A DNA stretch of 64,000 nt from Embleya scabrispora DSM 41855 (GTDB lineage: Bacteria; Actinomycetota; Actinomycetes; Streptomycetales; Streptomycetaceae): assembly GCF_000372745.1 (NCBI RefSeq), contig NZ_KB889618.1, positions 1 through 64,000 of the forward strand. The letters are read 5' to 3'. A program made the position numbers and the translations under genes. Each line of letters begins with the position of its first letter. Within the stretch, counting starts at the first letter, position 1. Shown here one piece after another: positions 47,284 through 64,000 of the stretch. The notes under the pieces were generated by a model. It was not told the origin of the DNA and searched no databases. It saw only the letters and a program-made list of their open reading frames with translations.

Positions 47284-47292
47284 GCCCTGCGA

Positions 47293-48672: not shown

Positions 48673-48701
48673 TTGACAGCGGGCTGATTCGTGGATAGCT
48701 T
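48673..48701 (+). promoter_or_regulatory. rha operon promoter
   Basis: TTGACA at 48673-48678 and TAGCTT at 48696-48701, spaced 17 bp: a consensus -35 with an acceptable -10. Transcription would start near 48708, about 85 nt before the rhaI ATG. Confidence 0.75.
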
Positions 48702-48711
48702 ACGCCGAAAT

Positions 48712-48723
48712 TGAAACGTTTCA
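48712..48723. promoter_or_regulatory. LacI-family operator
   Basis: Perfect 12-bp palindrome TGAAACGTTTCA placed just downstream of the predicted start of transcription, where repressor binding would block rhaI expression. A half site (CGTTTCA) lies at the lacI start near 48572. Confidence 0.85.
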
Positions 48724-48791
48724 GTGTATGCCCCGAGGTTGCCCGAAGGCTGCCCACAACGTTTCGGGACTGCTCACACCATGGAGTCGAG

Positions 48792-49958
48792 ATGGCATCC
48801 ACGACCGCGGTGCGTGCCGCGCTGAAGACTCAGCGGATCGAGACGCCCTCGTGGGCGTACGGGAACTCCGGGACGCGGTTCAAGGTGTTCGCACAGCAGG
48901 GGGTGCCGCGGGACCCGTTCGAGAAGCTGGCCGACGCGGCCCGGGTGCACGCGTTCACCGGAATCGCCCCCTCGGTGTCGCTGCACATTCCCTGGGACAG
49001 GGTCGACGACTTCACGGCCCTGGCCGAGCACGCGGACGACCACGGGGTGACCGTCGGGGCGATAAACAGCAACGTGTTCCAGGACGACGACTACATGCTG
49101 GGATCGGTGACCAACCCGGACCCGCGCATCCGCCGCAAGGCGATCGATCACCTGCTGGAATGCGTCGACATCATGGACGCGACGGGCTCCCGGGATCTGA
49201 AGCTGTGGTTCTCGGACGGTACGAACTACCCCGGTCAGGACGACATCCGAGCACGTCAGGACCGGCTGGCGGAGGCCCTGGCACAGGTGTACGCGCGGTT
49301 GAGCGGCGAGCAGCGGATGATTTTGGAGTACAAGTTCTTCGAGCCCGCGTTCTACACGACCGACGTGCCGGACTGGGGCACGGCGTACGCGCACTGCCTC
49401 AAGCTGGGCGAGCGGGCCAAGGTCGTCGTCGACACCGGGCACCACGCGCCGGGAACGAACATCGAGTTCATCGTCGCGCTGCTGCTGCGCGAGGACAAGC
49501 TCGGTGCGTTCGACTTCAACTCGCGGTTCTACGCCGACGACGACCTGATGGTGGGGGCGGCCGACCCGTTTCAGCTGTTCCGCATCATGCACGAGGTCGT
49601 GCGCGGCGGCGGGCTCGACGCGGACACCGAGGTCGCGTTCATGCTCGACCAGTGTCACAACATCGAGCCGAAGATCCCGGGCCAGATCCGCTCGGTGATG
49701 AACGTCCAGGAAGCGACCGCCAAGGCGCTGCTCGTCGACGCCGAGGCGCTGGAGGCCGCACAGCGGGCCGGCGACGTGCTCGGCGCGAACGCGGTGCTGA
49801 TGGACGCGTACAACACCGACGTACGCCCGCTGCTCGCCGACCTGCGCGGCGAACTGGGCCTGGCGCCGGACCCGATGGCCGCCTACGCGGCATCCGGCTA
49901 CGCGGAGCGGATCAGGGCCGAGCGCGCCGGCGGTACGCAGGCCGGTTGGGGAGCCTGA
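48792..49958 (+). CDS. rhaI: L-rhamnose isomerase
   Basis: A 388-residue TIM-barrel isomerase converting L-rhamnose to L-rhamnulose. The family pattern is clear: IAPSVSLHIPWDRV, GAINSNVFQDDDYMLGSVTN, LEYKFFEPAFY with metal-ligand Glu, VVVDTGHHAPGTNIE, and FNSRFYADDDLM. ATG 48792 is preceded by GGAGTCGAG. It is first in the rha operon, 49 bp before the fused aldolase gene. This is the actinobacterial/RhaI type (Pseudomonas-like) rather than E. coli RhaA. Confidence 0.93.
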   Translation: MASTTAVRAALKTQRIETPSWAYGNSGTRFKVFAQQGVPRDPFEKLADAARVHAFTGIAPSVSLHIPWDRVDDFTALAEHADDHGVTVGAINSNVFQDDDYMLGSVTNPDPRIRRKAIDHLLECVDIMDATGSRDLKLWFSDGTNYPGQDDIRARQDRLAEALAQVYARLSGEQRMILEYKFFEPAFYTTDVPDWGTAYAHCLKLGERAKVVVDTGHHAPGTNIEFIVALLLREDKLGAFDFNSRFYADDDLMVGAADPFQLFRIMHEVVRGGGLDADTEVAFMLDQCHNIEPKIPGQIRSVMNVQEATAKALLVDAEALEAAQRAGDVLGANAVLMDAYNTDVRPLLADLRGELGLAPDPMAAYAASGYAERIRAERAGGTQAGWGA

Positions 49959-50007
49959 TCGCCGCGATCGACCGACCACCTCCGTACCGACCCAAGGGGC
50001 ACACCTC

Positions 50008-52059
50008 ATGAAGCCACCGACGAACCCGGCGGTGGAAACACTGCTGAACCGCTCCCACGCCCTGGGCGCCGACCCGCGCAACACCAACTACGCCGGAGGC
50101 AACACCTCCGCCAAGGGCACCGCACTCGACCCGGTCGCCGGCCACGCGGTCGAACTGATGTGGGTCAAGGGCTCGGGCGGCGACCTGGGCACCCTGACCG
50201 AGGGCGGCCTGGCCGTCCTGCGCCTGGACCGGCTGCGCGCGCTCGTCGACGTCTACCCGGGCGTCGACCGCGAGGACGAGATGGTCGCCGCGTTCGACTT
50301 CTGCGCGCACGGCAACGGCGGCGCCGCGCCCTCGATCGACACCGCGATGCACGGTCTGGTCGACGCCGCGCACGTGGACCATCTGCACCCCGACTCGGGG
50401 ATCGCGCTCGCCACCGCGGCGGACGGCGAGAAACTGACCGCCGAATGCTTCGGCGACACCGTGGCGTGGGTGCCGTGGCGCCGTCCCGGCTTCCAACTGG
50501 GCCTGGACATCGCGGCGATCAAGGCGGCGAATCCGCGGGCGATCGGCTGCGTTCTCGGCGGCCACGGGATCACCGCCTGGGGCGAGACCTCCGACGAGTG
50601 CCAGGCCAATTCGCTGCACATCATCCGCACCGCCGAGGCGTTCATCGCGCAGCGGTTCGACGCCGCCCGACACCCGTTCGGAGAACCGCTGCCCCGATAT
50701 GCGCCGCTCCCCGAGGCGCGGCGTCACGCCCGGGCCGCGGAACTCGCGCCGCTGCTGCGCGGGTTGGCGTCCACCGACCGGCCGCAGGTGGGGCACTTCA
50801 CCGACGCCGACGTGGTGCTGGACTTCCTCGCCCGCGCCGAACACCCGCGCCTGGCCGCGTTGGGCACCTCGTGCCCCGACCACTTCCTGCGCACCAAGGT
50901 GCGTCCGCTCGTCCTCGACACCGCGCCCGAGGCTCCGCTCGACGAGGTGGCCGCGCGCCTGCGTGAGTTGCACGCCGCCTACCGCCGGGAGTACGCGGCG
51001 TACTACGCCCGCCACGCCGGCGAGGATTCGCCCGCGATGCGTGGTGCCGACCCGGCGATCGTGCTGGTGCCCGGCATCGGGATGTTCTCGTACGGCAAGG
51101 ACAAACAGACCGCCCGGGTGGCCGGAGAGTTCTACGTCAACGCGATCGACGTGATGCGTGGCGCGGAGACCGTCTCGACGTACGCTCCCATCGAGGAGGC
51201 CGAGAAGTTCCGCATCGAGTACTGGGCGTTGGAAGAGGCCAAGCTCGCCCGGCTGCCCGAGCCCAGGCCGCTCGCCACCCGGGTGGCGCTGGTCACCGGC
51301 GCCGGCTCCGGCATCGGTAGGGCGATCGCGAAACGCCTCGCCGCCGAGGGCGCGTGCGTGGTGGTCGCGGACCTGAACGCCGAGAACGCGGCTGCCGTCG
51401 CGGCCGAACTGGGCGGAGCGGACCGGGCGGTGGCGGTCACCGTGGATGTGACCGACGAGGAGCGGATCAAGGCCGCGTTCGCCGAGGCCGCCCTCGCCTA
51501 CGGCGGTGTGGACCTGGTCGTCAACAACGCGGGCATCTCGATCTCCAAGCCGCTGCTGGAGACCACCGCCCGCGACTGGGACCTCCAGCACGACATCATG
51601 GCCCGCGGCTCGTTCCTGGTCTCCCGCGAGGCCGCCCGGTTGATGATCGACCAGCGCCTGGGCGGCGACATCGTCTACATCGCCTCCAAGAACGCCGTGT
51701 TCGCCGGGCCGAACAACATCGCCTACAGCGCCACCAAGGCCGACCAGGCCCACCAGGTACGCCTGTTGGCCGCCGAACTCGGTGAGCACGGCATCCGCGT
51801 CAACGGCGTCAACCCGGACGGCGTCGTGCGCGGATCCGGCATCTTCGCCGCGGGCTGGGGTGCTCGGCGGGCTGCCGTCTACGGCGTCGAAGAGGACAAG
51901 CTCGGCGAGTTCTACGCCCAACGCACCCTCCTCAAGCGCGAAGTACTGCCCGAACACGTCGCCAACGCGGTCTTCGCCCTGACCGGGGGCGACCTCTCGC
52001 ACACCACGGGGCTGCACATCCCCGTCGACGGGGGAGTCACCGCGGCCTTCCTGCGCTGA
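50008..52059 (+). CDS. Bifunctional rhamnulose-1-phosphate aldolase/short-chain dehydrogenase (RhaD-RhaE fusion)
   Basis: A 683-residue fusion. Residues 1-420 form a class II aldolase domain (NTNYAGGNTSAKG, metal-binding DHLHPDSGIAL, GGHGITAWGE). Residues 424-683 form an SDR (ALVTGAGSGIGRAIAKRL, NNAGISI, YSATK, GLHIPVDGG). The aldolase cleaves L-rhamnulose-1-phosphate to dihydroxyacetone phosphate and L-lactaldehyde; the SDR oxidises lactaldehyde to lactate. Length is normal for this actinobacterial/alpha-proteobacterial type. ATG 50008 is preceded by AAGGGG. Confidence 0.93.
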   Translation: MKPPTNPAVETLLNRSHALGADPRNTNYAGGNTSAKGTALDPVAGHAVELMWVKGSGGDLGTLTEGGLAVLRLDRLRALVDVYPGVDREDEMVAAFDFCAHGNGGAAPSIDTAMHGLVDAAHVDHLHPDSGIALATAADGEKLTAECFGDTVAWVPWRRPGFQLGLDIAAIKAANPRAIGCVLGGHGITAWGETSDECQANSLHIIRTAEAFIAQRFDAARHPFGEPLPRYAPLPEARRHARAAELAPLLRGLASTDRPQVGHFTDADVVLDFLARAEHPRLAALGTSCPDHFLRTKVRPLVLDTAPEAPLDEVAARLRELHAAYRREYAAYYARHAGEDSPAMRGADPAIVLVPGIGMFSYGKDKQTARVAGEFYVNAIDVMRGAETVSTYAPIEEAEKFRIEYWALEEAKLARLPEPRPLATRVALVTGAGSGIGRAIAKRLAAEGACVVVADLNAENAAAVAAELGGADRAVAVTVDVTDEERIKAAFAEAALAYGGVDLVVNNAGISISKPLLETTARDWDLQHDIMARGSFLVSREAARLMIDQRLGGDIVYIASKNAVFAGPNNIAYSATKADQAHQVRLLAAELGEHGIRVNGVNPDGVVRGSGIFAAGWGARRAAVYGVEEDKLGEFYAQRTLLKREVLPEHVANAVFALTGGDLSHTTGLHIPVDGGVTAAFLR

Positions 52060-52092
52060 GCACGCCGAAGCGCAGCGGCGACACGGAAGGCC

Positions 52093-52143
52093 GGCCGTGC
52101 CGCTCCCCGCCGGATGAGGGTTCGCCGGGAGAGCGGCACGGCC
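52093..52143. terminator. Intra-operon hairpin
   Basis: Perfect 13-bp arms GGCCGTGCCGCTC (52093-52105) and GAGCGGCACGGCC (52131-52143) with a 25-nt loop, in the 128-bp gap between the aldolase fusion and rhaB. It could attenuate or process the transcript, or end a shorter one. Confidence 0.65.
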
Positions 52144-52187
52144 ACGCCACACGCCAGACCCCAACCGAAACGATTGCCGAGGCCGCC

Positions 52188-53726
52188 ATGTCCCATCCCG
52201 ATCAGCTCGCAGGCTTCGCCGCAGTGGACCTCGGAGCGTCCAGCGGACGAGTGATCGTCGGCAGAGTCGGGCGCGAGGCCATCGACCTGAGCGAGGTCCA
52301 CCGCTTCGCCAACACGCCGGTGAGTGTCGGCGGCGTGTTGCACTGGGACATTCTGAATCTGTACGCGGGGGTGCTCGACGGCCTGCGCGCGGCCGGACGG
52401 GTGGCCGGGCAGACGGCCGGGCGGATACGCAGCGTCGGCATCGACTCCTGGGCGGTGGACTACGGCCTGCTGGACGCCTCCGGCGCGCTCCTCGGCAACC
52501 CCGTGCACTACCGCGACGCACGCACCGACGGAGTCCCGGAAAGGGCGTACGCGACGGTGCCACCCGACGAGCTCTACGCCAGGACCGGCATCCAGCACGC
52601 CCCGTTCAACACCATCCACCAGTTCCTCGCCGCCCGCGGCACACCCCAGTTCGCCGCAGCGCGCCGCGCGCTGCTGATTCCCGACCTGCTCGCGTACTGG
52701 CTGACCGGCCAGGCCGGGACCGAACTCACCAACGCTTCCACCACCCAGCTTCTCGACCCGGCCACGGGGCAGTGGGCCGACGACGTGGCCAGGCGCCTCG
52801 GCATCGACACCACACTGTTCCCGGCACTGCGCGAACCCGGCGACCACGGGGGCTTCCTGCGCGACGACGTGCTGATCGAGACCGGCCTGACCGGCCCGGT
52901 CGCGCTGACGGCGGTCGGCTCGCACGACACCGCGTCCGCCGTCGTCGGCGTACCGGCCCGGGACGCGCGTTTCGCCTACATCTCCAGCGGCACCTGGTCG
53001 CTCGTCGGTCTCGAACTGGACGAGCCCGTCCGCACCGAGGACAGCCGCCGCGCCAACTTCACCAACGAACTCGGCGTCGACGGCACGATTCGCTATCTGC
53101 GCAACATCATGGGCCACTGGCTGCTCCAGGAGTGCATGCGCCAATGGACCCATGAAGGACGACCCCAAGACCTGACGACCCTGCTCGCCGCGGCGGCCGA
53201 CGTGCCCCCGCTCGGATCGATCATCGACGCCGGCGACCCGGGCTTCCTCGCTCCGGGGGACATGCCCCGGCGCATCGCAAAGGCGTGCGCGGCCGCGGGT
53301 GACCCCGCGCCCGGCACGCCCGCCGAACTCGCCCGGTGCATCTTCGACAGCCTGGCGCTGGCCCACCGCGAGGCGATCACCGACGCGCAGCGCCTGTCCG
53401 GACGCGGCGTCGACACGGTGCACATCGTCGGCGGCGGCGCACGCAACGCACTGCTGTGCCAGGCCACGGCCGACGCCTGCGGCCTGCCGGTGGTGGCGGG
53501 ACCGGTGGAGGCCGCCGCACTGGGCAACATCCTGGTGCAGGCCAGGTCGCACGGAGCCGTGCGCGGCTCACTCGCCGAGTTGCGCTCGCTGATCCGCCAC
53601 ACCCAAGCTCTGCGCACGTACTCGCCCCGTGGCACGCGGGCTTGGGACGCCGCGGCACAACGCCTGGCCGCGCGCCGCGCCCGCCGACCCGCCGCGATCA
53701 CCGGGAAGCCCGCGACCCCCTCCTGA
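52188..53726 (+). CDS. rhaB: Rhamnulokinase
   Basis: A 512-residue FGGY kinase phosphorylating L-rhamnulose at O1. AAVDLGASSGRVIVGRVG, SVGIDSWAVDYGLLD, VGSHDTASAVVGVP, YISSGTWSLVGLE and HIVGGGARNALLCQ are RhaB-type. ATG 52188. The C-terminus has an Arg/Ala-rich tail. It completes isomerase-kinase-aldolase chemistry. No rhamnose transporter, mutarotase or rhamnosidase is next to it. Confidence 0.93.
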   Translation: MSHPDQLAGFAAVDLGASSGRVIVGRVGREAIDLSEVHRFANTPVSVGGVLHWDILNLYAGVLDGLRAAGRVAGQTAGRIRSVGIDSWAVDYGLLDASGALLGNPVHYRDARTDGVPERAYATVPPDELYARTGIQHAPFNTIHQFLAARGTPQFAAARRALLIPDLLAYWLTGQAGTELTNASTTQLLDPATGQWADDVARRLGIDTTLFPALREPGDHGGFLRDDVLIETGLTGPVALTAVGSHDTASAVVGVPARDARFAYISSGTWSLVGLELDEPVRTEDSRRANFTNELGVDGTIRYLRNIMGHWLLQECMRQWTHEGRPQDLTTLLAAAADVPPLGSIIDAGDPGFLAPGDMPRRIAKACAAAGDPAPGTPAELARCIFDSLALAHREAITDAQRLSGRGVDTVHIVGGGARNALLCQATADACGLPVVAGPVEAAALGNILVQARSHGAVRGSLAELRSLIRHTQALRTYSPRGTRAWDAAAQRLAARRARRPAAITGKPATPS

Positions 53727-53848: not shown

Positions 53849-54460
53849 ATGCACGGACCGGCGGGGGACTCGAAGGCACCCACGGGCCTGCGCGAGCGCA
53901 AGAAGGCGCGGACCCGGCAGGTGATCTCCTCGGTCGCGTTCGACCTGTTCGAGGAGCAGGGTTTCGAGCAGACCACGATCGAGCAGATCTGCCGTCGGTC
54001 CGAGGTGGCTCACCGCACCTTCTTCCGCTACTTCCCGACCAAGGAATCCCTGCTGTTCGGCTGGGACTTCGGCAACCTCATCCTGGACGGGTTCGCCGCC
54101 GCGCCCGCCGACCTGGACCTGGTGTCCGCGCTGGAGTACGCGATGACGGTCAGTCAGGGCAACCTCGAGGAACAGGCCGAGCAGACCACCCGCCGGCAGG
54201 CCCTGCGCCGCCGCTTCATGGACATCCGCGCGGTGCACGACCACGGCGTGGCGTTGATCGACCTCGTCAACCAGCGGATGGTGTCCACCGCCGCCGCCCG
54301 GCTGGGCGTGGACCCGCGCGAGGACCTGCGCCCGCACGCGCTGGGCGCGCTCGTGGCGGCGATGACCCGACGCCGGGTGATCGACGGCGTCGACCCCGGG
54401 TCGATGGCCCTGTGGGCCGACGCCTTCCGGACGCTGCTGCCGGCGCCGACGGACGGCTGA
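53849..54460 (+). CDS. TetR-family regulator, edge of the azoxy cluster
   Basis: A 203-residue TetR protein: N-terminal HTH (ARTRQVISSVAFDLFEEQGF, then TTIEQICRRSEVAHRTFFRYF) and a helical ligand domain. It converges on the decarboxylase gene with 21 bp between stops. It is probably the local regulator of the azoxy biosynthesis genes, though control of rha genes cannot be excluded. Confidence 0.88.
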   Translation: MHGPAGDSKAPTGLRERKKARTRQVISSVAFDLFEEQGFEQTTIEQICRRSEVAHRTFFRYFPTKESLLFGWDFGNLILDGFAAAPADLDLVSALEYAMTVSQGNLEEQAEQTTRRQALRRRFMDIRAVHDHGVALIDLVNQRMVSTAAARLGVDPREDLRPHALGALVAAMTRRRVIDGVDPGSMALWADAFRTLLPAPTDG

Positions 54461-54481
54461 GCGCTGCCCCTCGGGTTCGCC

Positions 54482-56167
54482 TCAGGTGACCACTCGTGGG
54501 CGGGGCCGGCGCGGTGGGTCGGCCGTCGGCTCCGGGGGGAACGCGCCGGGCCGATGCAGATCCGCGATCAACTCGTCCACCAGCTCCCTGCTCAGGTGCC
54601 GCATCACATACAGGTGCACGTACGTGCGCGGCACGCCGTTCACCGGCACGGTCTCGCCGGCGAGCGAGTAGCGGTGGACGATCTCCGCGCGCGGTTGCCG
54701 AAAGCGCACCGTCAACGCCTGTGGGCTGCGCGCCACCCACAGGTCCCGGCCGAGCCGGTGCTGGAGGTCGAGCAGGCGCTCGTGCGCGTACCCGGCCAGA
54801 CGATCGCAGCCCGCCGCCAGCCGGACCTGATCGTCGTAGGAGTGCCGGGCCAGGTGGTCCCACATCAACAGCGCGGAGAAGCCGTTGCGCGAGCCCGCGA
54901 ACGTGGTGTCGGCGGCGCCGATGTACTCCGAGGACTTGGGCGGGGTCATCTGCAGGCCGGTGCGGGTCATGAACACGCCGCAGGCCCACGGCGTACCGAA
55001 CCACTTGTGCCCGCTCATCGTCAGCGAGTGCACGTCGGCGATCCGGAAGTCGAACACGGGCGGCGCCTGGTCCACCATGCCCACGTTCCGGGCCATCTCC
55101 AGAAACGGCGCGTACCCGGCCCCCAGCGCACCGTCGATGTGCAGCCAGTACCCCGAGCGCTCGTCGTGGTCGTCGGTCGCGGCCCGCCGGATCCGCCGCC
55201 GGTGCAGCCCGTATTCGGTGCAGATCCCGCGCACGGTGCGAGCCACCGCCGCGACGTCGTCGTAGGCGCCCTTGAACGTGGAGCCGTAGTTCAGGCTGAC
55301 CAGGATCGGATACCCGCGGCAGGCGAAGAAGCGCACCAGGGTGGCCAGCCGCTCGATGTCGATCGCGCCGTCCGCGGTGCTGGGCACCTCGGTCGGCCAG
55401 GGAGCCCCGGGCCGAAGCGGGTTCTCGTTCGGGTAGCGGGTGCTGCCGACCGCATGGAAGGTGTCGATGGCCAGCGCCCGCACGGCCTTGGTCAGCGAGT
55501 AGTGGGTGTCCTCGGAGAAGAACGCGATCGGATGGAAGGCGTTGGGGCCGTGCTCCTCACCCTTCGGAGCCTGTTCGTAGGTGAGCACTCCCGTGCCGCG
55601 GTCGTGCGCGCGCAGCCGCTTGCCGGCGAGGTAGTCGCGCGCGTTCCACAGACCGTAGAGGTTGCCCTCGCTGGAGCCCATGGTGAGCAGATAGCCCCAG
55701 TACGACTCCGGGTCGCGCTCGTCGTGCGGCCACTTGGCGTGCCACAACGATGCGAAGTAGTCCAGCACCGCCCGCTCCAGCACCTTGGAGTTGAGCGTGT
55801 ACGAACTGGACTGGAACGGATCGCCGACGTTGTTGAGGTGCCGGTCGAGATAGTGGGCCAGGCGCGGCCGGTAGTCCAGGTCGCTGGTGACCTGGTAGCC
55901 GGCGAAGTTGCGAGTCTGCGTGTCGATGTGGCTGCGGAACAGCGCCTCGGCCTCCTCGTACTGTCCGGGATCCAGTCCGCCCGGCGGCAACTGCACCTTG
56001 GCGTGCGGCACTTCCGGAACGCCGATGTAGGCGTCCCGGGGATCGGCGGACGGGGGAGTGCCGTACGGTAGGCCGCCGACGAGCCGCAGGTCGCTGAAGG
56101 TCTTCTGCCACGGGGCGTCCTCGGGCCCGAAGGGGATGTCCGAGGGGGCTTCGGCGTCGTGTGCCAT
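54482..56167 (-). CDS. PLP-dependent group II amino acid decarboxylase (VlmD-like role)
   Basis: A 561-residue decarboxylase. The PLP lysine (about residue 388) is in TMSGHKWFGTPWACGV, with SLNYGSTFKGAYDD and YWLHIDGALGAGYAPF before it and MGSSEGNLYG near the N-terminal third. It resembles histidine decarboxylase-type proteins. In valanimycin biosynthesis the valine decarboxylase VlmD forms the starting amine, and this gene fills that place. Substrate (valine or another amino acid) is not decidable from sequence. ATG 56167 with AAAGGA upstream. Last gene of the minus-strand azoxy operon. Confidence 0.88.
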   Translation of the reverse strand: MAHDAEAPSDIPFGPEDAPWQKTFSDLRLVGGLPYGTPPSADPRDAYIGVPEVPHAKVQLPPGGLDPGQYEEAEALFRSHIDTQTRNFAGYQVTSDLDYRPRLAHYLDRHLNNVGDPFQSSSYTLNSKVLERAVLDYFASLWHAKWPHDERDPESYWGYLLTMGSSEGNLYGLWNARDYLAGKRLRAHDRGTGVLTYEQAPKGEEHGPNAFHPIAFFSEDTHYSLTKAVRALAIDTFHAVGSTRYPNENPLRPGAPWPTEVPSTADGAIDIERLATLVRFFACRGYPILVSLNYGSTFKGAYDDVAAVARTVRGICTEYGLHRRRIRRAATDDHDERSGYWLHIDGALGAGYAPFLEMARNVGMVDQAPPVFDFRIADVHSLTMSGHKWFGTPWACGVFMTRTGLQMTPPKSSEYIGAADTTFAGSRNGFSALLMWDHLARHSYDDQVRLAAGCDRLAGYAHERLLDLQHRLGRDLWVARSPQALTVRFRQPRAEIVHRYSLAGETVPVNGVPRTYVHLYVMRHLSRELVDELIADLHRPGAFPPEPTADPPRRPRPRVVT

Positions 56168-56217
56168 CAGGGCCGGTCCTTTCGCTTCGCTACACGATGT
56201 CCGGTGCGTCGACCGGG

Positions 56218-57729
56218 TCACTGCACCGTCGGGGTGAGGTTGCCGGCGGCATCCGTCGGCCGCGGATCCGCCGTCGTGGCCGGATCGGGGGTCGGCCGGG
56301 CCGGGTCGGGCATGCCGCCCAGGCGCGCGTACCGCTCCGGTCGGGCCACGCGCATCCGGTACGCGAACCCGACGCCGGCAGCGGTGACCGCGGGCAACAA
56401 CCAGGGCAGCGCGGTGACCACCGGATTCGTGGTCCCGGTCAGCACGTCGAAGTTGCACACCACGAGTACGGCCGCGACGGTCAGTCCCACGGCACCCGAC
56501 ACGGGCGCGACCAGGGTCTGCCACCGACTCTCGTGGCGACGCCGGAAGTAGCCCACCACGGCCACCGACGCCAGCGCCTGGAGCAGGATGATGCCGAGCG
56601 TGCCCAACCCCAGCATGCTCGTCGACATGTTCACGTACGGATCCAGGCCGGCGCCGGCGAACGCGACCACCAGCACCGCACTGAAACCGCTCTGCACCAG
56701 GCTCGCCCGATGCACCGAGCCGTGCCGCCCGTGCGCCGCGCACAACCGGGCCGGCAACAACCCGTCCCGGCTCAGCGCGTACATGTAGCGGTTGGCGGCG
56801 TTGTGCAGCGCCAACCACGCGGCGAACAGGCTCGTGCACAGCAGCACCTGCATGGTGATGGTGGCCGGGTGGCCGAGATAGTCGTCGCCGAGCCGGAAGA
56901 ACAGGTCGCCCAGGTGCTGTTCGGCCTCGGCCCGAACCCGGCCCGGGCCCACCGCGCCGACCGCGACCCAACTGGTGAGCGCGTAGAAGGAGGCGACCAC
57001 CACCACGGCGATCACGGTGGCCCGCGGCACGCTGCGCCGTGGCGCCTTGGCCTCCTCGCCGTACAGCGCTGCGGATTCGAAGCCGAGGAACGACGCGAAT
57101 CCGAACATCACCGACACACCCAGCCCCGGGGCGACCACATGGTCCGGGGCGAAGGACGTCAGCGGCAACGACGCCGTGCCGTGCCGGCTCAGGACGGCGA
57201 TGTCCAGCGCGAGCAACATGGCGATCTCGCAGATCATGCACGCGGACAACAACCGCGCGCTGAACTCCGCCTCGCGGTAGCCCAGCGCGCCCACCACGAG
57301 CAGACCGACGAACGCCCAGACCTCCCACGGCAGATCCAGACCGTGACCCGCGGCCACGTCCTGGGTGAAGTAGGCGAAGGCGCCCAGGACCCCGACGGTT
57401 GCCGCGTTGTACGCCAGCACCGCCAACAGCCCCGCGCCGGCCGCGATCGGGCGGCCGAGACCGTGCGCGATATGCGCGTAGAAGCCACCCATGTTGCTCA
57501 TCCGCCGGGCGATCGCGGCGTAGCCCACGGAAAAGCAGAGCAGGGTCAGCCCGGCGAAGACGAACATGGCCGGAACCCCGGGACCGGTGCCGATGGCGAA
57601 GGACAGCGGGACGGTGAACACCATCGCGGCCAGCGGCGCGGCGGCCGCGATGATGATGAACACGATCTTCGGCGTGGTCAGCGTGCGCCGGAAGTCGGTG
57701 CCCGGCGCGGTGGATGCGGAGCCGGCCAT
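56218..57729 (-). CDS. APC-family amino acid permease
   Basis: A 503-residue permease with 12 membrane segments (KIVFIIIAAAAPLAAMVFTV at TM1, FGFASFLGFESAALYGEEA at TM6, a typical APC motif). It lies between the diiron oxygenase and the decarboxylase with start and stop one base apart, so it belongs to the operon. It probably imports the amino acid precursor or exchanges it for the amine; export of product is an alternative. The C-terminal tail (about 40 residues) is Pro/Thr rich. Confidence 0.9.
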   Translation of the reverse strand: MAGSASTAPGTDFRRTLTTPKIVFIIIAAAAPLAAMVFTVPLSFAIGTGPGVPAMFVFAGLTLLCFSVGYAAIARRMSNMGGFYAHIAHGLGRPIAAGAGLLAVLAYNAATVGVLGAFAYFTQDVAAGHGLDLPWEVWAFVGLLVVGALGYREAEFSARLLSACMICEIAMLLALDIAVLSRHGTASLPLTSFAPDHVVAPGLGVSVMFGFASFLGFESAALYGEEAKAPRRSVPRATVIAVVVVASFYALTSWVAVGAVGPGRVRAEAEQHLGDLFFRLGDDYLGHPATITMQVLLCTSLFAAWLALHNAANRYMYALSRDGLLPARLCAAHGRHGSVHRASLVQSGFSAVLVVAFAGAGLDPYVNMSTSMLGLGTLGIILLQALASVAVVGYFRRRHESRWQTLVAPVSGAVGLTVAAVLVVCNFDVLTGTTNPVVTALPWLLPAVTAAGVGFAYRMRVARPERYARLGGMPDPARPTPDPATTADPRPTDAAGNLTPTVQ

Positions 57730-57730
57730 G

Positions 57731-58708
57731 TCAGGTCAGCCGCAGGATCTCGACGGCTTCCGGCAGGCCCATGTACGCCAGACGGATCGCCGCCATCTCG
57801 TCGGTCCAGCGCTCGGCCGTCGCGTAACGCTCCTCGGCGTCGGTGTCCACCAGCCGAGTCCCCGGCCAGACCTCGTAGTCGCCGACCAGATCGGCGTGAC
57901 GGCGCAGGCCCTCCTGGAACAGGTGCTCGCGGACCATGATGTATTTCCGGTCCGGGATGGTGTCCCACAACAACCGGCCGCGCCGGATCACCCGCAACAG
58001 CCGGTCGCGCGACTCGGGATGACGCAGCAGATGCTCGCGCACGATGGAACTGCCCACCGTCAGATGGCGGATCTCGTCGATCGCCGCCCCCCGGGCGATG
58101 GCCGCGGCGGCCGGGTCGAGCAGGCACCACTTGCGCTCGCTCAACTCGGCCGCCGGCGCCAACACACCCTCGATGACGATGGTGAACACCGCGACGCCGC
58201 CGATGAAGTCGCCGTCGTCGCGGACCGTGCGCACCGCGAAGTCGAGAATCGGGTCCAGCACGTCGTGCCGGTAGTCGGTGCTCAGCTCGTCGATCGTCGC
58301 GTGCAGGTCGGCGGCGGGCACGCCCATCTCCACCAGGTGCCCGCGGAAGACCATCGAGTGCCGGGCCTCGTCGAGCAACTGGGTGGCGAAGAAGTCCAGT
58401 TCGGCGAGCCCGGGAGCACTCGCCACATAGTGCGCCAGCGCCCGGGTGCCCTGCGCCTCGGCAACCGAGCGGCAACCCAGTTCCAACAGTTGCGCATCGC
58501 GCAACGGGCCGTCCACGCACATGTGTGCCGGCGTGGGCTCGGCCGCGGTGTGCCCGGTCCGCGCCCGGTCGCGCAGTGTGCCCTGGGCGACCCCGCGCAG
58601 CCAGTAGGCCAGATCGCACTGTTCGGCGGTCAACTCCAGGTTCATCGCGCCGTCGAGCAGGCCCGGCGCGGTGTCCCAATCGGTCTCGGGCGGTATGGAC
58701 GTTGCCAT
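57731..58708 (-). CDS. vlmB: VlmB-like ferritin-fold diiron protein
   Basis: A 325-residue helical protein with paired iron-binding motifs: Glu114-x-x-His117 in DEARH, Glu180 in FTIVIEGVLAP and Glu212-x-x-His215 in DEIRH; Glu84 (VAEAQGTRALAH) may complete the site. VlmB homologues are conserved in azoxy clusters and are thought to act in the oxidation steps forming the azoxy group. Its place between flavin reductase and permease agrees. ATG 58708 has GGGAG about 9 nt upstream. Exact reaction not established here. Confidence 0.85.
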   Translation of the reverse strand: MATSIPPETDWDTAPGLLDGAMNLELTAEQCDLAYWLRGVAQGTLRDRARTGHTAAEPTPAHMCVDGPLRDAQLLELGCRSVAEAQGTRALAHYVASAPGLAELDFFATQLLDEARHSMVFRGHLVEMGVPAADLHATIDELSTDYRHDVLDPILDFAVRTVRDDGDFIGGVAVFTIVIEGVLAPAAELSERKWCLLDPAAAAIARGAAIDEIRHLTVGSSIVREHLLRHPESRDRLLRVIRRGRLLWDTIPDRKYIMVREHLFQEGLRRHADLVGDYEVWPGTRLVDTDAEERYATAERWTDEMAAIRLAYMGLPEAVEILRLT

Positions 58709-58737
58709 GACGGGATCTCCCGGTTCGTGGGGGTGAC

Positions 58738-59343
58738 TCAGTCGAGGGTGGTCGTGGTGTCGGTGCGCCAGCCCTGGCGGCGGCGCACCCCGTGGAACTC
58801 GACGTCGTGCAACCGGCCGGCGAAGCCGATCAGCGGCCGACCCGAGCCGGCGCGGGCGTGCACGATCTCCGCCACCAGCAGGTGCTCGCCCGCGCCCAAC
58901 GGCACGTGATTGCGCAACCGGCAGTCGAACCAGGCCAACGCGTCCACCAGCAGCGGGATGTCGGTGCCCGGATCGAGCTCGGACCGGACCAGATCGAACT
59001 GGGCGATCCCGGGCGGACGGCGCGGATTGGCGAACCAGTCGGCGAGCAGGGCCTGGCGCGAGGAGAGCACGTTGACGAAGAACCGGCCGCTGCGCCGGAT
59101 CAGCTCGGTCATCGGCGAGCCGCCGCGCAGGCACACGCCGAGCCGCAGCGGCTGTTGGGAGAGCACCGTGGTGGTGGAGACCGTGGCGCCGTGCGCCGAC
59201 TCCTGGTGGGCCGAGGTCAACACCGCAACGCCGGTGGGCAGCAGCCGCGACATCTCACGCAACTCCCGCGCCCGGTCGCCCTGGGGCCGGGGCCGATCGG
59301 CGAGTCCCAGTGCCGGCTCCGGGCCGGTCGACTCCGCACTCAT
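58738..59343 (-). CDS. vlmR: VlmR-like flavin reductase
   Basis: A 201-residue flavin reductase-like domain protein: LLPTGVAVLTSAHQESAHGA, TTTVLSQQPLRLGVCL, FFVNVLSSRQALLADWFANP, then a GDHL-related GEHLLVAEIVHA. It supplies reduced flavin to the N-hydroxylase (VlmH-like) encoded two genes upstream. Start overlaps the stop of the VlmO-like gene (ATGA). Canonical partner of VlmH in valanimycin biosynthesis. Confidence 0.9.
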   Translation of the reverse strand: MSAESTGPEPALGLADRPRPQGDRARELREMSRLLPTGVAVLTSAHQESAHGATVSTTTVLSQQPLRLGVCLRGGSPMTELIRRSGRFFVNVLSSRQALLADWFANPRRPPGIAQFDLVRSELDPGTDIPLLVDALAWFDCRLRNHVPLGAGEHLLVAEIVHARAGSGRPLIGFAGRLHDVEFHGVRRRQGWRTDTTTTLD

Positions 59344-59876
59344 CGGCTCGGCCGGGCGGCGGAGGCCGCCGCCGGGGTCGATGCCGCGGTGGCCGCCGGG
59401 GTCGATACCCGCCCCGGATCGGTGCCCGGGCGGCCCTTGCCGAACAACCGCCGTGACAACCGCGCGAAGTCCTCGTCCGGGGTCGGCTCGAAGGGCAACG
59501 CGAAGGGCTTGAGGAAATTGCCGAACACGCCCCGATCGGCGCACAGGTGGATGGGGATCGCCAGCAGCGCCCACTCCGCACCGCTCAGCCCGATCCACAC
59601 ACCGATCACCGCCGCCTGGGTGATCAGGCTGTGCATCGTGTTGTAGGCGATGTAGTAACCCTTGGGGATGCGCTTGGTGGTGCTGCGCCGGAAGGCGATC
59701 GCCCCCGGGATGTAGCCGATGAGGTCGATGTAGACGAACAGCAGGACGGCCGGCAGCCAGCGCACGTCGCCGCTGTGCGCGATGAACAGCGCCAGCGAGA
59801 CGCCCAGCCCGACCAGGTATTCGCCGCGGTGGAGGCGGAAGGTGGTGGGGGAATCGAACACGTTGACCTGATCCAT
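59340..59876 (-). CDS. vlmO: VlmO-like integral membrane protein
   Basis: A 178-residue protein with several hydrophobic segments (YLVGLGVSLALFIAHSG, WLPAVLLFVYIDLIGYIPGA, AAVIGVWIGLSGAEWALLAI) and conserved-looking polar residues (AYNTMHSL, HLCADRG). The last 40 residues are Ala/Thr/Pro rich. Position between VlmH- and VlmR-like genes matches VlmO, a membrane protein common to azoxy clusters and implicated after seryl transfer. No other family was recognised, so the name rests mainly on context. Confidence 0.75.
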   Translation of the reverse strand: MDQVNVFDSPTTFRLHRGEYLVGLGVSLALFIAHSGDVRWLPAVLLFVYIDLIGYIPGAIAFRRSTTKRIPKGYYIAYNTMHSLITQAAVIGVWIGLSGAEWALLAIPIHLCADRGVFGNFLKPFALPFEPTPDEDFARLSRRLFGKGRPGTDPGRVSTPAATAASTPAAASAARPSR

Positions 59877-59904
59877 CTGAACTCCACTGGTCGAGGGTGC
59901 CGGT

Positions 59905-61041
59905 TCAGATCCGCAGCGGTCCGCCGTTGAAGTACTCGACGAGGTGCGGCGAGGAGGAGGTCCGGCCGGGCGGGTGGAAGGCCAAGGGGTGCAGGGCCGA
60001 GGACAGGTAGGCGATCTCCGGCGACTTGATGAAGGCGATGCCGCCGAGGAGTTCCACCGCCTGCTCGGACACCGTCGCCAGCGACTTTTGAATGGCGAAC
60101 CGGGCGGTCAGTGCCGCGGCGACGGATTCCTCGCCGGTGACGCCGTCCCGCAGCGCCCGGGCGGTGCCCTCGGTCAGGCCGACGGCCGCTTCCAGCTGGA
60201 TGCCCAGCGCCGCCCGGTCGGTGACCGTGCCGCGTTCGCGCTTCATCACCGATTCGGTCAGCGCCGACGCCGCGCCCACGTAGGCGGAGGTGATCAACAA
60301 CTCGAACCAGACGAAGGTGGCCTCCTGGAGGTCGTCCAGCCGGCTGGGATCGTCGGCCGTGCCCCGGATCACCAGGTGCTCGGGCACGTGCACGTCGTGC
60401 AGTCGCACCTCGTCGCTCTGCGCGGCGGCCAGTACCGGACTGTCCCAGAACGGATGCACCGAGATCCCGGCGGAGTCCGCCGGGATCAACAGCACCGCCA
60501 GCGAGGTCCGGCCGTCCGCATCGGGCACCGTGACGCTGGCCGTGAGCAGATCCATGGAGCGGGAGAGGCTGCACGGCTTCTTCGAGCCGTTGACGACGAA
60601 CCCATCCGCGACCGCCTCGGCGGTCACCGCCGGGCTCAGGATGTCCTGTTGGGTGCGCCCCTCGGCCCAGCCCGAGGCCAGCAACATGCCCTCGGGCGCG
60701 ATCCGGGCGAGCACCTGCTTCTGCTCCGGCGTCGGCGGCACCACGCGGTCCGCGAGGGCGAACAGCATCGCCACGGTGAAGTTGTGCATGGTGGCGCCGG
60801 CCGCCAGCGATGGCGAGTACGCGCCCAACGCCCGGGTGACCCGGACGGCGTCCAACGCGTCCGCACCGATGCCGCCGTAGGCCCGGGGCACGAGCAGACC
60901 CGCGCCGCCGTGCTCCTTGAAGATGTCCACCACGGGACTGCCGCTCGCCTCGCGCTCGGGCATCGGCAGTGCGTCCAGTGCCTTCAGCAGGCCGGGATGA
61001 TGCCGTTCACAGGTCTCGCGGGCGATGTCGAGAGAAAGCAT
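59905..61041 (-). CDS. vlmH: VlmH-like flavin-dependent amine N-hydroxylase (acyl-CoA dehydrogenase fold)
   Basis: A 378-residue acyl-CoA-dehydrogenase-like protein (LLVPRAYGGIGADALDAVRV, VADGFVVNGSKKPCSLSRSM, QAVELLGGIAFIKSPEIAYL). VlmH, the two-component isobutylamine N-hydroxylase of valanimycin biosynthesis, belongs to this fold and needs VlmR, whose homologue is in the same operon. It should turn the amine made by the decarboxylase into a hydroxylamine. ATG 61041 has GGAGG 9 nt upstream. First gene of the minus-strand operon. Confidence 0.88.
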   Translation of the reverse strand: MLSLDIARETCERHHPGLLKALDALPMPEREASGSPVVDIFKEHGGAGLLVPRAYGGIGADALDAVRVTRALGAYSPSLAAGATMHNFTVAMLFALADRVVPPTPEQKQVLARIAPEGMLLASGWAEGRTQQDILSPAVTAEAVADGFVVNGSKKPCSLSRSMDLLTASVTVPDADGRTSLAVLLIPADSAGISVHPFWDSPVLAAAQSDEVRLHDVHVPEHLVIRGTADDPSRLDDLQEATFVWFELLITSAYVGAASALTESVMKRERGTVTDRAALGIQLEAAVGLTEGTARALRDGVTGEESVAAALTARFAIQKSLATVSEQAVELLGGIAFIKSPEIAYLSSALHPLAFHPPGRTSSSPHLVEYFNGGPLRI

Positions 61042-61275
61042 CCGGGGTTGCCTCCGGTATTTGATGGGAATGCCGTGGGCTCACCGTCACACGACACTCT
61101 GACTGCCGCCTGACATCATTCTGATGAAAGGAGAACCGACATCGGTGGCGATGCTTCTGACACGGTGATGACGCCCGACTGACAGTCGACCGACAAACTC
61201 GCACCGGCATTGCGTGCGACGGTGCTCCGCATCATCATGAGCGGTGGATCGTGACACCGCTGACCAGGAGCCCAA
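61042..61275. other. Divergent azoxy-cluster promoter region
   Basis: 234 bp between the VlmH-like and VlmA-like genes. It must carry both promoters. CATCATTCTGATG (61114-61126) is a short inverted repeat and related CATCA/TGATG words recur toward 61240, possible TetR-type sites. No consensus -35/-10 pair was convincing. Confidence 0.45.
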
Positions 61276-62289
61276 ATGACACAGGGAACAGTGACAGAGG
61301 CGGCGCACGCCTCGGCGGAATACGCGCTCGAAGCGATACGCAAATACACCCGTGCGGAAAACCCGAGTTCCTTCCTCGCGGTCAACCGGGGGAATTCGTA
61401 TTTCACACTTCCGGGACGCCCGGGAATCATCGTCTACCGCCCCGCCGGGAAATACCTGGTTCAGTTCGGCGGACCCTTCGCGCCGGACGAGTCCTACGTG
61501 GACCTCATGCGCGCGTTCACCGAGTACACCGTGGCACACGGCCGGCGTCAGGCGATCATCCAGCTCCAGCTGCACGACGCCCGCATCCACGCCCGGCACG
61601 GCTACACGGTGAACCAGGTGGGCGCGTCCTACGCCGTCGACCTGGGCGCCTTCACCGTCGCCGGCACCCGGTACATGCAGCTGCGCAACAAGATCTCGCG
61701 GGCCCTGCGCAGCGGCCTGACCGTGGTGGAGGCCGACTACGAACAGTGGCAGGAGGGCGTCGCGGACATCGACCGGCGCTGGCTCCCGCTCAAGGGCGAG
61801 GGCGCCCGTCCGCTGGAATACCTGGTCGGCCAGACGGGCGGGGACATGCAACGGCTGCGCCGGTTGTTCCTGGGCCACATCGACGGCGAGGCCATCGGAT
61901 ACGTCTCCTATTCACCTGTGTACGGCACGTACGACGGATGGATGCACGACCTGAGCCGGCGTCTTCCGGAAAGCCCGGCCGGTGTCATGGAGGCCTGCAA
62001 CAAGGCGGCGATCGATACCTTCCGGGCCGAGGGAGTGCCCTGGCTGCATTTCGGCTTCACGCCGTTCACCACACTCGAGGAGGAGCGCGAGATGCCCGGC
62101 CACAGCCTCGGCTTCAAGTGGCTCATGCATTACCTCTGGGAGAACCAGGTCGTCTACCCGGCCTCGTCCCAGCTGGCCTATAAGGACAAATGGAACCCGA
62201 CGCTGGTCACCACGGAGTACGCGGGATTTCCGGACGGGGCCAGTGCGGAGGGTTTCGTGAACATCTGGCGGGCCGCGAACGCGATGTGA
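61276..62289 (+). CDS. vlmA: VlmA-like seryl-tRNA-dependent seryl transferase (DUF2156/LPG-synthase fold)
   Basis: A 337-residue protein of the DUF2156 (phosphatidylglycerol lysyltransferase-like, double-GNAT) fold: SSFLAVNRGNSYFTLPGRPG, FGGPFAPDESYVDLMRAF, DGWMHDLSRRLPESPAGVME and HFGFTPFTTLEEE. VlmA transfers serine from seryl-tRNA to isobutylhydroxylamine, giving the O-seryl intermediate. Soluble, with no MprF membrane part. ATG 61276 is preceded by AGGAG. It opens the plus-strand arm of the cluster. Confidence 0.88.
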   Translation: MTQGTVTEAAHASAEYALEAIRKYTRAENPSSFLAVNRGNSYFTLPGRPGIIVYRPAGKYLVQFGGPFAPDESYVDLMRAFTEYTVAHGRRQAIIQLQLHDARIHARHGYTVNQVGASYAVDLGAFTVAGTRYMQLRNKISRALRSGLTVVEADYEQWQEGVADIDRRWLPLKGEGARPLEYLVGQTGGDMQRLRRLFLGHIDGEAIGYVSYSPVYGTYDGWMHDLSRRLPESPAGVMEACNKAAIDTFRAEGVPWLHFGFTPFTTLEEEREMPGHSLGFKWLMHYLWENQVVYPASSQLAYKDKWNPTLVTTEYAGFPDGASAEGFVNIWRAANAM

Positions 62290-62362
62290 CGAGTCGGGAA
62301 ACAAACGAAAACGTGATCGGGATCCACCGTTCGGACCCCACCCGAACCTTCGGGAGATGGAG

Positions 62363-62569
62363 ATGTCGATGAGCGCGAACACGACCACGAATGTCGAGAG
62401 CGGCTCGATCGAGGCCATGCGGGAGCAGTTGACCTCGGGCTTCCTCGCGTTGTGCGCCGACCCGGACGACGCAGCGGCGGCCGGCCGCGCGGACGGCGCG
62501 CTGCACGCGCTGGATGTCCTGCTGGCGACGGCCGCGGAGGGTTCACAGGCCGAGGGCCTGTTCGAGTAG
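62363..62569 (+). CDS. Small hypothetical protein of the azoxy cluster
   Basis: A 68-residue acidic, Ala-rich helical protein (SIEAMREQLTSGFLALCADP, then DDAAAAGRADGALHALDVLL). ATG 62363 has GGGAG 6 nt upstream; ATG 62357 and 62369 are alternatives in the same frame. No known domain and no Ser carrier site is obvious; one Cys is present. It follows vlmA on the same strand and its 3' end overlaps the PrpD-like gene by 27 bp tail to tail. Possible partner or chaperone of a pathway enzyme; this is speculation. Confidence 0.6.
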   Translation: MSMSANTTTNVESGSIEAMREQLTSGFLALCADPDDAAAAGRADGALHALDVLLATAAEGSQAEGLFE

Positions 62570-64000
62570 CGCACGCAGCCGTGTCGGGTCGGTCCGCGCC
62601 AGCCCCGGCCACTGCCGGGTCACCGCGGCCGGCCCGCCCAGCGCACGGAACTTCGCAGCGATCAACTCACGGTGACATGACCGTAGTTCCGGCCCGATGC
62701 CACCCTTGGGGATGCGGTACTCGCGGACCAGGACCCGACCGTCGCGCAGTTCGACCCGCACCCGGGCCGGCGTCGGCTTCTCGGCGGCGGTGAAGTCCTC
62801 GGCCGGTGCGCCCGGCGCGGGAGCGAGGTCGAGCAACTCCGCGCCGCCGAACTCCGCCAGCCAGGCCCGTCCCGCAGCGCCCGCCTGCCGCAGCGCCTCC
62901 CCGAACGGCGCGTCACCGGCCAGCAGTTCGCGAGTCATCTCGCGATCGTGCACGAGTCGGACCTTGGCCGCGAGCCGCCAGCGCTCGGGTGTGTCGACCC
63001 GGGGCGTGGTGAAGTCCTCGATGACCAGTTGCCCGGTCAACAGCGCGGTGGCCACCGGGTAGGGGGTATCGAGTACCAGGGCGCCGATCGGTGTCCGCGG
63101 CCCGTCGAGATAGGGCCCGGCCTTGCGGGCGGCGAAGAGCGTGTAGACGGAGCACTCCACGACTACCTCGTGCACGTCCTCCACCGCCCACGTGCCCAAC
63201 TCACGGTGCAGGTCGATGGCGCAATCGACGGCCGCGTCGATGCCGGGACCGCCGGGGTGCAGCTTGAACGAGAGCGTCTCGGTGTGCCAGCGCCGGCCCA
63301 GGCCCAGGGCCGGCGCATCCGGCAGCGGAACGGTGGCGAACCGGGCGAGGAAGCCGTCGGGATGCTCGACGATGTCGGCCGCGCCGTGCAGGCCGCCGGT
63401 CGCGGCGTCGCAAGCGTCCAGGCCCATTCGCACGGCGACCGGGACGTGCAGCAGTCGGGCGTCGCCCGCGATGAAGCCGCGCAGCAGGGTCCACGGCGGC
63501 GCGCTCAGGGCCAGTGCGAGGGCGTCGAGCCACCGTCCGGCAGGGGCCCGTTCGCACGCGAGCCGGCCGGCGACCGCGCCGACGACATGGGTGTGCAGCG
63601 CGGTCTGCCCGCGGAACGGGCCCAGGGTGGCCGCCGAGGTGATCCGCGCGGAGCATTCGTCGGCCAGGATCACCGCACGCAGCAACTCGGCGCCGGACAG
63701 CCCGAGAGCATGTGCGTACGCGAGCGGGACACCCACCGTCGAGGGGCCCAGATGGCCGGCGTAGGCGGTGTCGTCGAGGTTGAGCCAGGCGCCGACGCCG
63801 CTCAGGACGCGCGCGGACTGGGCGGTGTCGGCCTGGAACGGGACGCCCAGCGCCCGAACCAGACGGTGTCCGTCCGGCTGTCGCAACCCGGTTCGGATCG
63901 CCGCGACCTGGGAGAGCACGTGGGTGGCGGCGAAGTCGACCACTCGCGGCGGGACATCGGACAGTTCCAACCCGGCTGCCCAGTGGGCCAGTTGCTCCAG
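62543..64000 (-). CDS. vlmK: VlmK-like MmgE/PrpD-family dehydratase, 5' end outside the window
   Basis: 485 residues are visible; the frame is open to the window edge (LEQLAHWAAG precedes ELSDVPPRVVDFAATHVLSQ), so the start lies beyond 64000. MmgE/PrpD signature regions include LDDTAYAGHLGPSTVGVPLA, FRGQTALHTHVVGAVAGRL, TETLSFKLHPGG and a C-terminal GGIGPELRSC. VlmK of valanimycin biosynthesis belongs to this superfamily and dehydrates valanimycin hydrate phosphate to give the dehydroalanine end; a VlmJ-type kinase would be expected outside the window. Convergent overlap of 27 bp with the small protein gene. Confidence 0.88.
   Translation of the reverse strand: MEQLAHWAAGLELSDVPPRVVDFAATHVLSQVAAIRTGLRQPDGHRLVRALGVPFQADTAQSARVLSGVGAWLNLDDTAYAGHLGPSTVGVPLAYAHALGLSGAELLRAVILADECSARITSAATLGPFRGQTALHTHVVGAVAGRLACERAPAGRWLDALALALSAPPWTLLRGFIAGDARLLHVPVAVRMGLDACDAATGGLHGAADIVEHPDGFLARFATVPLPDAPALGLGRRWHTETLSFKLHPGGPGIDAAVDCAIDLHRELGTWAVEDVHEVVVECSVYTLFAARKAGPYLDGPRTPIGALVLDTPYPVATALLTGQLVIEDFTTPRVDTPERWRLAAKVRLVHDREMTRELLAGDAPFGEALRQAGAAGRAWLAEFGGAELLDLAPAPGAPAEDFTAAEKPTPARVRVELRDGRVLVREYRIPKGGIGPELRSCHRELIAAKFRALGGPAAVTRQWPGLARTDPTRLRALLEQALGL

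Follow-up and report, generated by a model that had tools for sequence, protein, structure and literature searches.

A valanimycin-type azoxy gene cluster with a putative polyketide synthase extension in Embleya scabrispora DSM 41855

Introduction

Azoxy compounds form a small group with potent biological activity, and the genes that set their two ends are poorly known. Which amine enters, and what becomes of the acid end, are the questions raised by a locus in the window examined herein, a stretch of 64,000 nucleotides from Embleya scabrispora DSM 41855 (RefSeq assembly GCF_000372745.1, contig NZ_KB889618.1, positions 1–64000; contig C58 in our numbering). A preliminary description of this window, made from the sequence alone, placed a valanimycin-type azoxy biosynthetic gene cluster at its right end, suggested a valanimycin-like dehydroalanine-type product and proposed that a decarboxylase and a permease may set a different amine.

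The present study revealed that this is an azoxy cluster of the valanimycin clade, and that it is real and larger than first reported. Azoxy clusters are already a known kind, for which antiSMASH 8 has a rule (PMC12230676). With moderate confidence, we propose a valanimycin-type cluster in which a one-module type I polyketide synthase (PKS) probably lengthens the azoxy acid. Judged by gene content, the cluster likely yields a new compound related to the known azoxy products.

Results

Gene calls were made with a codon-usage script, families were assigned using Pfam and NCBIfam, and the contig was read beyond the window end. All genes named in the preliminary description had a good coding signal and most had family evidence; the homologues of VlmH, VlmR, VlmA, VlmB and VlmO, the decarboxylase and the VlmK-like PrpD protein were confirmed. 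The VlmJ kinase, expected past position 64000, was found just outside the window (Table 1). VlmB matched "Putative VlmB homolog" (PDB 6d9f/8wvr) across its whole length, while a PDB search with VlmK gave no match at 1e-5. The likely iron ligands of VlmO, D51, H82, H110 and D114 (PMC11705231), occupied the same positions and were invariant in 9/9 aligned sequences, including that of E. scabrispora. Identities to the Kitasatospora setae-type locus of genome G531 were 66% for VlmA, 74% for VlmH, 66% for VlmO, 54% for VlmR, 72% for VlmB, 57% for the decarboxylase, 68% for the APC permease, 64% for VlmK (the copy adjoining VlmJ) and 54% for VlmJ. The O-R-B gene order of G531 agrees with the accessions listed in PMC11705231, E4N6B1 for VlmO and E4N6B3 for VlmB.

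The core gene set is not a chance assembly because VlmO was rare, matching in only 9 of the 394 sampled genomes from the class (including the present genome and one weak match of 51 residues), yet VlmH and VlmB were also present in 75 of 88 sequences, nearly all of which had been picked for holding VlmO. The best 80 of 231 VlmO relatives on GTDB contigs were used, and counts drawn from this set are biased to close kin. VlmB was found in one of the four genomes of the host genus, that of E. scabrispora. In a published survey, 3,146 actinobacterial genomes held 179 VlmA/VlmH pairs, and VlmJ/VlmK pairs and seryl-tRNA synthetase (SerRS) genes lay near particular VlmA groups (PMC9379638).

A tree of VlmH, VlmB and VlmO was built by a quick method with SH-like approximate likelihood ratio (SH-aLRT) support from 870 columns and 50 rows, which were left of 75 after removal at ≥90% identity. 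The cluster paired with that of Streptomyces sp. WM6378 (L031; 95%), and the five decarboxylase-bearing clusters (E. scabrispora, WM6378 twice, Streptomyces abikoensis and G531) formed one clade (99%). Taken together, VlmH, VlmB and VlmO thus group the cluster with the K. setae-type one, which supports a valanimycin-type azoxy core; VlmA was outside this tree.

Two of these strains carry further sets. WM6378 has two decarboxylase-type azoxy core sets and a PKS block, distributed over several contigs (L031/L032/L169/L204/L205). Another VlmK/VlmJ pair of G531 (L187, C1:3070240–3074694) comes with an aldehyde dehydrogenase (71%) and an additional SerRS approximately 11 kb away; it probably marks a further azoxy cluster, one that uses a fatty amine.

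The closest solved relative of the decarboxylase was L-methionine decarboxylase (7cif, E=1.9e-144). The modelled pocket of VlmD from Streptomyces viridifaciens consists of V94, V114, T397, W399, S431 and D515 (PMC7794544). The corresponding residues were V93, V114, T392, W394, S426 and N510, and five of the six are as in VlmD, with N in place of D; the sites were placed by spacing and alignment, with the D515 placement and the one-residue valine offset being inferred. In the same order, the residues were A, L, A, W, S, E in 7cif, L, I, A, W, S, D in G531 and I, V, A, W, S, D in S. abikoensis. These letters vary inside the clade, the K. setae-type enzyme differing at three sites, and are not fully diagnostic. 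An identity as methionine decarboxylase was rejected because 7cif has A, L and A where V, V and T stand here.

VlmD of K. setae was assayed as an aliphatic amino-acid decarboxylase (PMC9643649), and VlmD accepts amino acids besides valine (PMC7794544). In S. viridifaciens, ilvBNCE adjoins the vlm cluster (PMC4353338). The present locus has no room for ilvBNCE between the small gene downstream of vlmA and vlmK, and these genes were not searched for elsewhere in the genome. Contig C351 of WM6378 has, right after the small gene and at the contig end, the start of a frame that we take to be acetolactate-synthase-like, and contigs C351 and C51 hold frames that presumably are ilvB/N/C-like. Since five of six pocket letters are those of VlmD, such a frame occurs in WM6378 and ilvBNCE lies beside vlm, the substrate is probably valine and the amine isobutylamine, as in valanimycin. 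A different amine set by the decarboxylase and the permease was not supported by the pocket residues; moreover, the permease is common in azoxy clusters, with homologues in the K. setae-type cluster and at 23 of 80 named azoxy loci at ≥45% identity.

The usual fatty-amine set of azoxy loci comprises an aldehyde dehydrogenase, a class III aminotransferase, a cyclase-like protein, KASIII, an acyl carrier protein (ACP) and KAS. Among 73 named loci with VlmH and VlmB, 60 had the aminotransferase and/or the aldehyde dehydrogenase, three had the decarboxylase, none had both and ten had neither. No match to the aldehyde dehydrogenase, class III aminotransferase or KASIII was found in C58 50001–85000 at ≥40–45% identity. 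Because the decarboxylase and the fatty-amine genes are mutually exclusive across these loci, fatty-amine supply appears to have been replaced here by amino-acid decarboxylation, as in valanimycin.

The decarboxylase-permease pair also occurs in a non-azoxy cluster of genomes G676, G445 and G583 (L162/L163, L164/L165 and L166), at 77–79% identity to the decarboxylase described herein. In G445, its neighbours include an AurF-type N-oxygenase, an ACP, a class II tRNA-synthetase-like protein, a nitronate monooxygenase-like protein and a phosphopantetheinyl transferase; G583 and G676 have genes of like sizes and order around the pair (domains were read in G445 alone). The amine-supply pair seems to be shared with another N-oxidation pathway.

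The dehydroalanine-type product proposed earlier agrees with the valanimycin-type core and with VlmK and VlmJ. However, it is an incomplete account because a block encoding a PKS, an AMP ligase and a thioesterase follows directly. Eight copies of the PKS were aligned. All kept the KS and AT motifs (GHSIGE/GHSVGE and HAFH), which we take to indicate a malonyl-type AT. The DH histidine was lost in Streptomyces sp. XM4193 and G133, the ER motif region was absent in WM6378, XM4193 and G133 and unrecognisable in Salinispora mooreana, and the KR asparagine was replaced with phenylalanine or serine in 5 of 7 copies with a KR. The Streptomyces atratus PKS (56% identity over KS-AT) is complete at 1,043 aa as KS-AT-ACP only, is followed directly by the AMP ligase, and stands beside a full fatty-amine set. 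Among known pathways, PMC6662830 gives the KA57-A cluster type as "azoxyalkene and type I PKS", and the azodyrecin pathway as described has no PKS (PMC9379638). Among the open texts listed for elaiomycin, KA57-A, maniwamycin or jietacin biosynthesis, we recognised none that tests the PKS. Elaiomycin derives its four-carbon end from serine and one acetate carbon. In the few clusters whose products are known, the PKS thus occurs together with a longer acid end; moreover, the S. atratus enzyme consists solely of KS-AT-ACP, and DH or ER is gone from several relatives. The comparison points to the addition of one malonyl unit to the azoxy acid, perhaps with subsequent decarboxylation.

This extension is the weakest step proposed for the cluster, and several points weigh against it. 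The E. scabrispora PKS is longer than that of S. atratus and keeps DH, KR and, by Pfam, a weak ER. The copies in Parafrankia and Streptomyces sclerotialus keep their DH, ER and KR motifs, and more rounds or reduction are possible. The retained domains, together with an AMP ligase that is closest to long-chain acyl-CoA ligases, would suit a PKS that makes a chain of its own, acyl or alkyl, destined for the amine or an ester or amide partner, rather than lengthening the azoxy acid. We consider this doubtful: the decarboxylase accounts for the amine here, as do aldehyde dehydrogenase, aminotransferase and KAS genes where other clusters bear the PKS; the 35 kb searched hold no homologue of such a reductase or aminotransferase; and the reduced PKS copies of S. 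atratus and several relatives are at odds with chain building.

Other points concern whether the PKS block is part of the cluster. On one alternative reading, the product is valanimycin itself and the block is an unrelated neighbouring cluster. In favour of this reading, every valanimycin step except VlmL is encoded. The same-clade locus of G531 has no PKS or AMP-ligase homologue in 60 kb, the luciferase-like (LLM) oxidoreductase gene being the sole block gene there. S. abikoensis has, 0.3–1.8 kb beyond vlmJ, a different PKS (38% identity) and a cytochrome P450 fragment (129 aa, L022 17234–17623). Further observations weigh against the proposed cluster. WM6378 has the whole block on contig C289 (61–84% identity), on a different contig from its azoxy core. 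The use of WM6378 as evidence that the 27-kb cluster is contiguous in another strain was rejected because the parts lie on separate contigs and the four contigs tested shared no exact end overlap of 21–200 nt; on its contig C68, other genes follow beyond the SARP gene. Two matches to the PKS DH region (42–44%) were in genomes without a VlmO match. Moreover, among the loci read, no other contig joined a decarboxylase-type core to the PKS block.

However, homologues of the PKS, ACP, AMP ligase, thioesterase, LLM oxidoreductase, P450, SnoaL-like protein and MFS pump adjoin azoxy cores on the same contig, in varying subsets, in XM4193, G133, Parafrankia colletiae, S. mooreana, S. sclerotialus and S. 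atratus. At least one of the PKS, AMP ligase and LLM genes lay within ±10 kb in 45 of 73 named core loci, and flanks of this size undercount the block. The PKS DH region matched in five of the 394 genomes at E≤1e-40, with three candidates scored per genome; all matches above 50% identity (the present one, G133 at 51% and G285 at 54%) were at azoxy loci, and the Parafrankia PKS (G284, an azoxy locus) was not among the matches. Because block homologues adjoin azoxy cores in several genera, the block appears to belong to azoxy clusters and not to be an unrelated neighbour, and we regard valanimycin itself as an unlikely product. The PKS of S. abikoensis (L022/L113; 1,288 aa, a single module with KS, AT and, by eye, an ACP) may also be part of the valanimycin-type cluster of that strain, which is complete in other respects.

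A dedicated seryl-tRNA synthetase (VlmL) was expected past position 64000 and was absent, which also counts against the proposed pathway; the whole genome (11,390,904 bases in 190 contigs, 98.3% complete) has one SerRS, on contig C169. It scored 79.9 bits, similar to the best copy of most genomes searched, whereas cluster-type copies score approximately 27–48 bits. WM6378 has three SerRS copies, S. abikoensis two and G531 four, some of which lie in or beside azoxy genes; the two extra copies in WM6378 are beside vlmK, and S. abikoensis has the order vlmA, small gene, SerRS, vlmK, vlmJ on one contig. In E. scabrispora, the small gene runs into vlmK at the stop codon, and the DNA of its extra C-terminus matches, by eye, the vlmK 3' end on contig C68 of WM6378. 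For these reasons, the simplest reading is that VlmL was lost by deletion between the small gene and vlmK.

This loss need not silence the pathway since the genomes of XM4193, S. atratus and S. mooreana, which carry PKS-bearing azoxy loci, have one SerRS each, and azodyrecin clusters without an aminoacyl-tRNA synthetase are active (PMC9379638). A decaying cluster silenced by this loss, for which the run of the small gene into vlmK and the synthetases of related clusters may be cited, is very unlikely in view of these cases and of the remaining core genes, which are open and well coded.

A short gene, overlooked in the earlier inventory, lies directly 3' of vlmA on the same strand. A hidden Markov model (HMM) of its product matched in 36 of 51 loci with VlmA (88 sequences). 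Of the 15 loci without a match, one has 48 bases of downstream sequence. The regions counted had also served to train the HMM, so that independent evidence comes only from seven further matches at locus edges, with VlmA presumably just outside, and from the lack of any stray match in a set of 25,681 six-frame segments. An alignment of 20 copies shows P, D, L and L in common. AlphaFold predicted two helices (residues 6–32 and 37–65) with a mean predicted local distance difference test (pLDDT) score of 79.6. The nonsynonymous rate (dN) was lower than the synonymous rate (dS) in 6/6 pairs of four copies, by only approximately 1.6–2.5-fold. In Actinosynnema sp. ALI-1.44 (L047 680–1285, minus strand), the small protein continues in frame into sequence that is ACP-like by eye. 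The azoxy literature examined, which did not cover some primary vlm papers, made no mention of this protein. It is a concrete candidate for a missing pathway component.

The features of the cluster are listed in Table 1. The whole cluster occupies C58 54482–81921 on a contig of 205,374 bases; 54482–64000 lies inside the window and approximately 18 kb lies beyond it. The preliminary span of 53849–64000 therefore held for the azoxy genes, but neither for its start at a TetR gene nor for its right end. The TetR gene (53849–54460) was rejected as a member and is probably outside: none of 89 azoxy loci held a relative of it at E≤1e-6, and generic TetR matches (31–39%) at other loci lay away from the azoxy core. 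As the right border we took the HTH/MLTR regulator, the outermost gene whose homologues occur at azoxy loci elsewhere (57–84% identity in WM6378, S. mooreana, Parafrankia, L034 and L037); a glycosyltransferase gene lies beyond it, outside the border. The SARP appeared truncated (153 aa) by the first gene call, which was discarded because an upstream reading gives an intact protein. It is 59% identical to the SARP beside the S. abikoensis cluster and was assigned to the VlmI type. On the left, the cluster borders a sugar-catabolism island (45426–53726) with a xylose-isomerase-like barrel protein, GntR and LacI regulators, a class II aldolase/SDR fusion and an FGGY kinase.

Table 1. Genes assigned to the azoxy cluster on contig C58 of E. 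scabrispora DSM 41855. Functions are predicted by homology; positions above 64000 lie beyond the window.
Feature	Position	Strand	Basis or remark
VlmD-type PLP decarboxylase, 561 aa	54482–56167	-	Pyridoxal_deC E=1.4e-11
APC-type amino-acid/amine permease	56218–57729	-	AA_permease_2 E=3.9e-29
VlmB-like diiron oxygenase (hydrazine to azoxy)	57731–58708	-	PDB 6d9f/8wvr, phmmer E=1.7e-157
VlmR-like flavin reductase	58738–59343	-	Flavin_Reduct E=4.3e-28
VlmO-like membrane N-N bond-forming enzyme	59340–59876	-	Relatives; no Pfam/NCBIfam family
VlmH-like amine N-hydroxylase (flavin monooxygenase)	59905–61041	-	Acyl-CoA dehydrogenase/DszC-like family
VlmA-like seryl-tRNA-dependent transferase	61291–62289	+	LPG_synthase_C E=1.1e-51
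Small helical-hairpin protein, 70 aa (~55 aa in relatives)	62357–62569	+	HMM; directly downstream of vlmA
VlmK-like MmgE/PrpD dehydratase	62543–64063	-	MmgE_PrpD N and C domains; runs past the window end at 64000
VlmJ-type kinase	64060–65013	-	DAGK_cat/YegS_C; adjoins VlmK
SARP, 256 aa	65695–66465	+	
Luciferase-like (LLM) oxidoreductase	66963–67937	-	
Thioesterase	67989–68780	-	
AMP ligase	68777–70405	-	Nearest long-chain acyl-CoA ligases
One-module type I PKS, 2,099 aa	70452–76751	-	KS-AT-DH-ER-KR-ACP by Pfam, ER weak
Discrete ACP	76741–77097	-	
SnoaL-like protein	77510–77896	+	
MFS efflux pump	78084–79547	+	
P450	79658–80857	+	
HTH/MLTR regulator	81115–81921	+	

Discussion

We propose the following pathway, in which the steps from the amine to the azoxy-acrylate follow close homologues of enzymes tested by others, and those of the PKS and tailoring enzymes follow gene content and co-occurrence. 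The VlmD-type decarboxylase would convert valine to isobutylamine, or to a near short branched amine, and VlmH with VlmR would hydroxylate it. Since VlmL is missing, VlmA would add serine from seryl-tRNA of the ordinary cell pool. VlmO would then form the N-N bond, and VlmB would convert the hydrazine to the azoxy group. Phosphorylation by VlmJ and elimination of the serine hydroxyl by VlmK would give a valanimycin-like azoxy-acrylate. The AMP ligase may activate the carboxylate, before or after the VlmJ/VlmK step; the discrete ACP and the PKS would add one malonyl unit, and the thioesterase would release the chain. The resulting beta-keto acid may lose CO2 to yield an isobutyl-azoxy C4 enone or alcohol. 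The LLM oxidoreductase and the P450 may tailor the product, the SARP and HTH proteins may regulate the pathway, and the MFS pump may export its product.

A bolder proposal is put forward tentatively, as we consider it less probable than the pathway above. The product may be the first azoxy-polyketide hybrid to start from a short branched amine of amino-acid origin: a chain-extended valanimycin (an isobutyl-azoxy vinyl ketone or a reduced form of it), with no dedicated SerRS in its biosynthesis. In addition, the hairpin protein of approximately 55 aa may be a widespread, hitherto unrecognised partner of the seryl transferase, possibly a carrier-protein docking element; the docking idea comes from the Actinosynnema copy that continues into ACP-like sequence. 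The lost synthetase also offers a natural test of whether VlmL is needed.

Among known systems, azodyrecin (ady) shares the VlmA/B/H/O/R core and the lack of an aminoacyl-tRNA synthetase in the cluster; however, it has an alanyl unit, a fatty amine, a methyltransferase and a desaturase, and neither a PKS nor VlmJ/K is among the ady genes described (PMC9379638). The elaiomycin-type cluster of S. atratus JCM 3386, which we take to be the ElaO strain, shares the azoxy core, a discrete ACP, a type I PKS, an AMP ligase and a distant thioesterase, and the KA57-A azx cluster of Streptomyces rochei shares a type I PKS by its listing. The S. atratus cluster differs in its amine genes (aldehyde dehydrogenase, aminotransferase and KASIII/ACP/KAS instead of a decarboxylase) and in its shorter PKS; VlmK had no match in that genome at E≤1e-20, and VlmJ was absent from the approximately 60 kb read, whereas both are present here.

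The closest system is valanimycin (vlm; S. viridifaciens and K. setae), with which the cluster shares a VlmD-type decarboxylase, VlmH, R, A, B, O, J and K, a SARP and the same tree clade, each core protein being 54–74% identical to its counterpart in the K. setae-type locus of G531. It differs from that system in the missing VlmL, in the absence of the ilvBNCE neighbours of S. viridifaciens from the gap before vlmK, and in the added AMP ligase, PKS, ACP, thioesterase and P450 block, which has no labelled homologues in 60 kb of G531. These clusters may be read as sets of exchangeable parts, namely, an amine supply by a decarboxylase or by the fatty-amine set, a fixed N-N core, dehydration by VlmJ/K and a PKS set. 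The decarboxylase-type core joined to the PKS set in E. scabrispora provides a test case for the role of the PKS.

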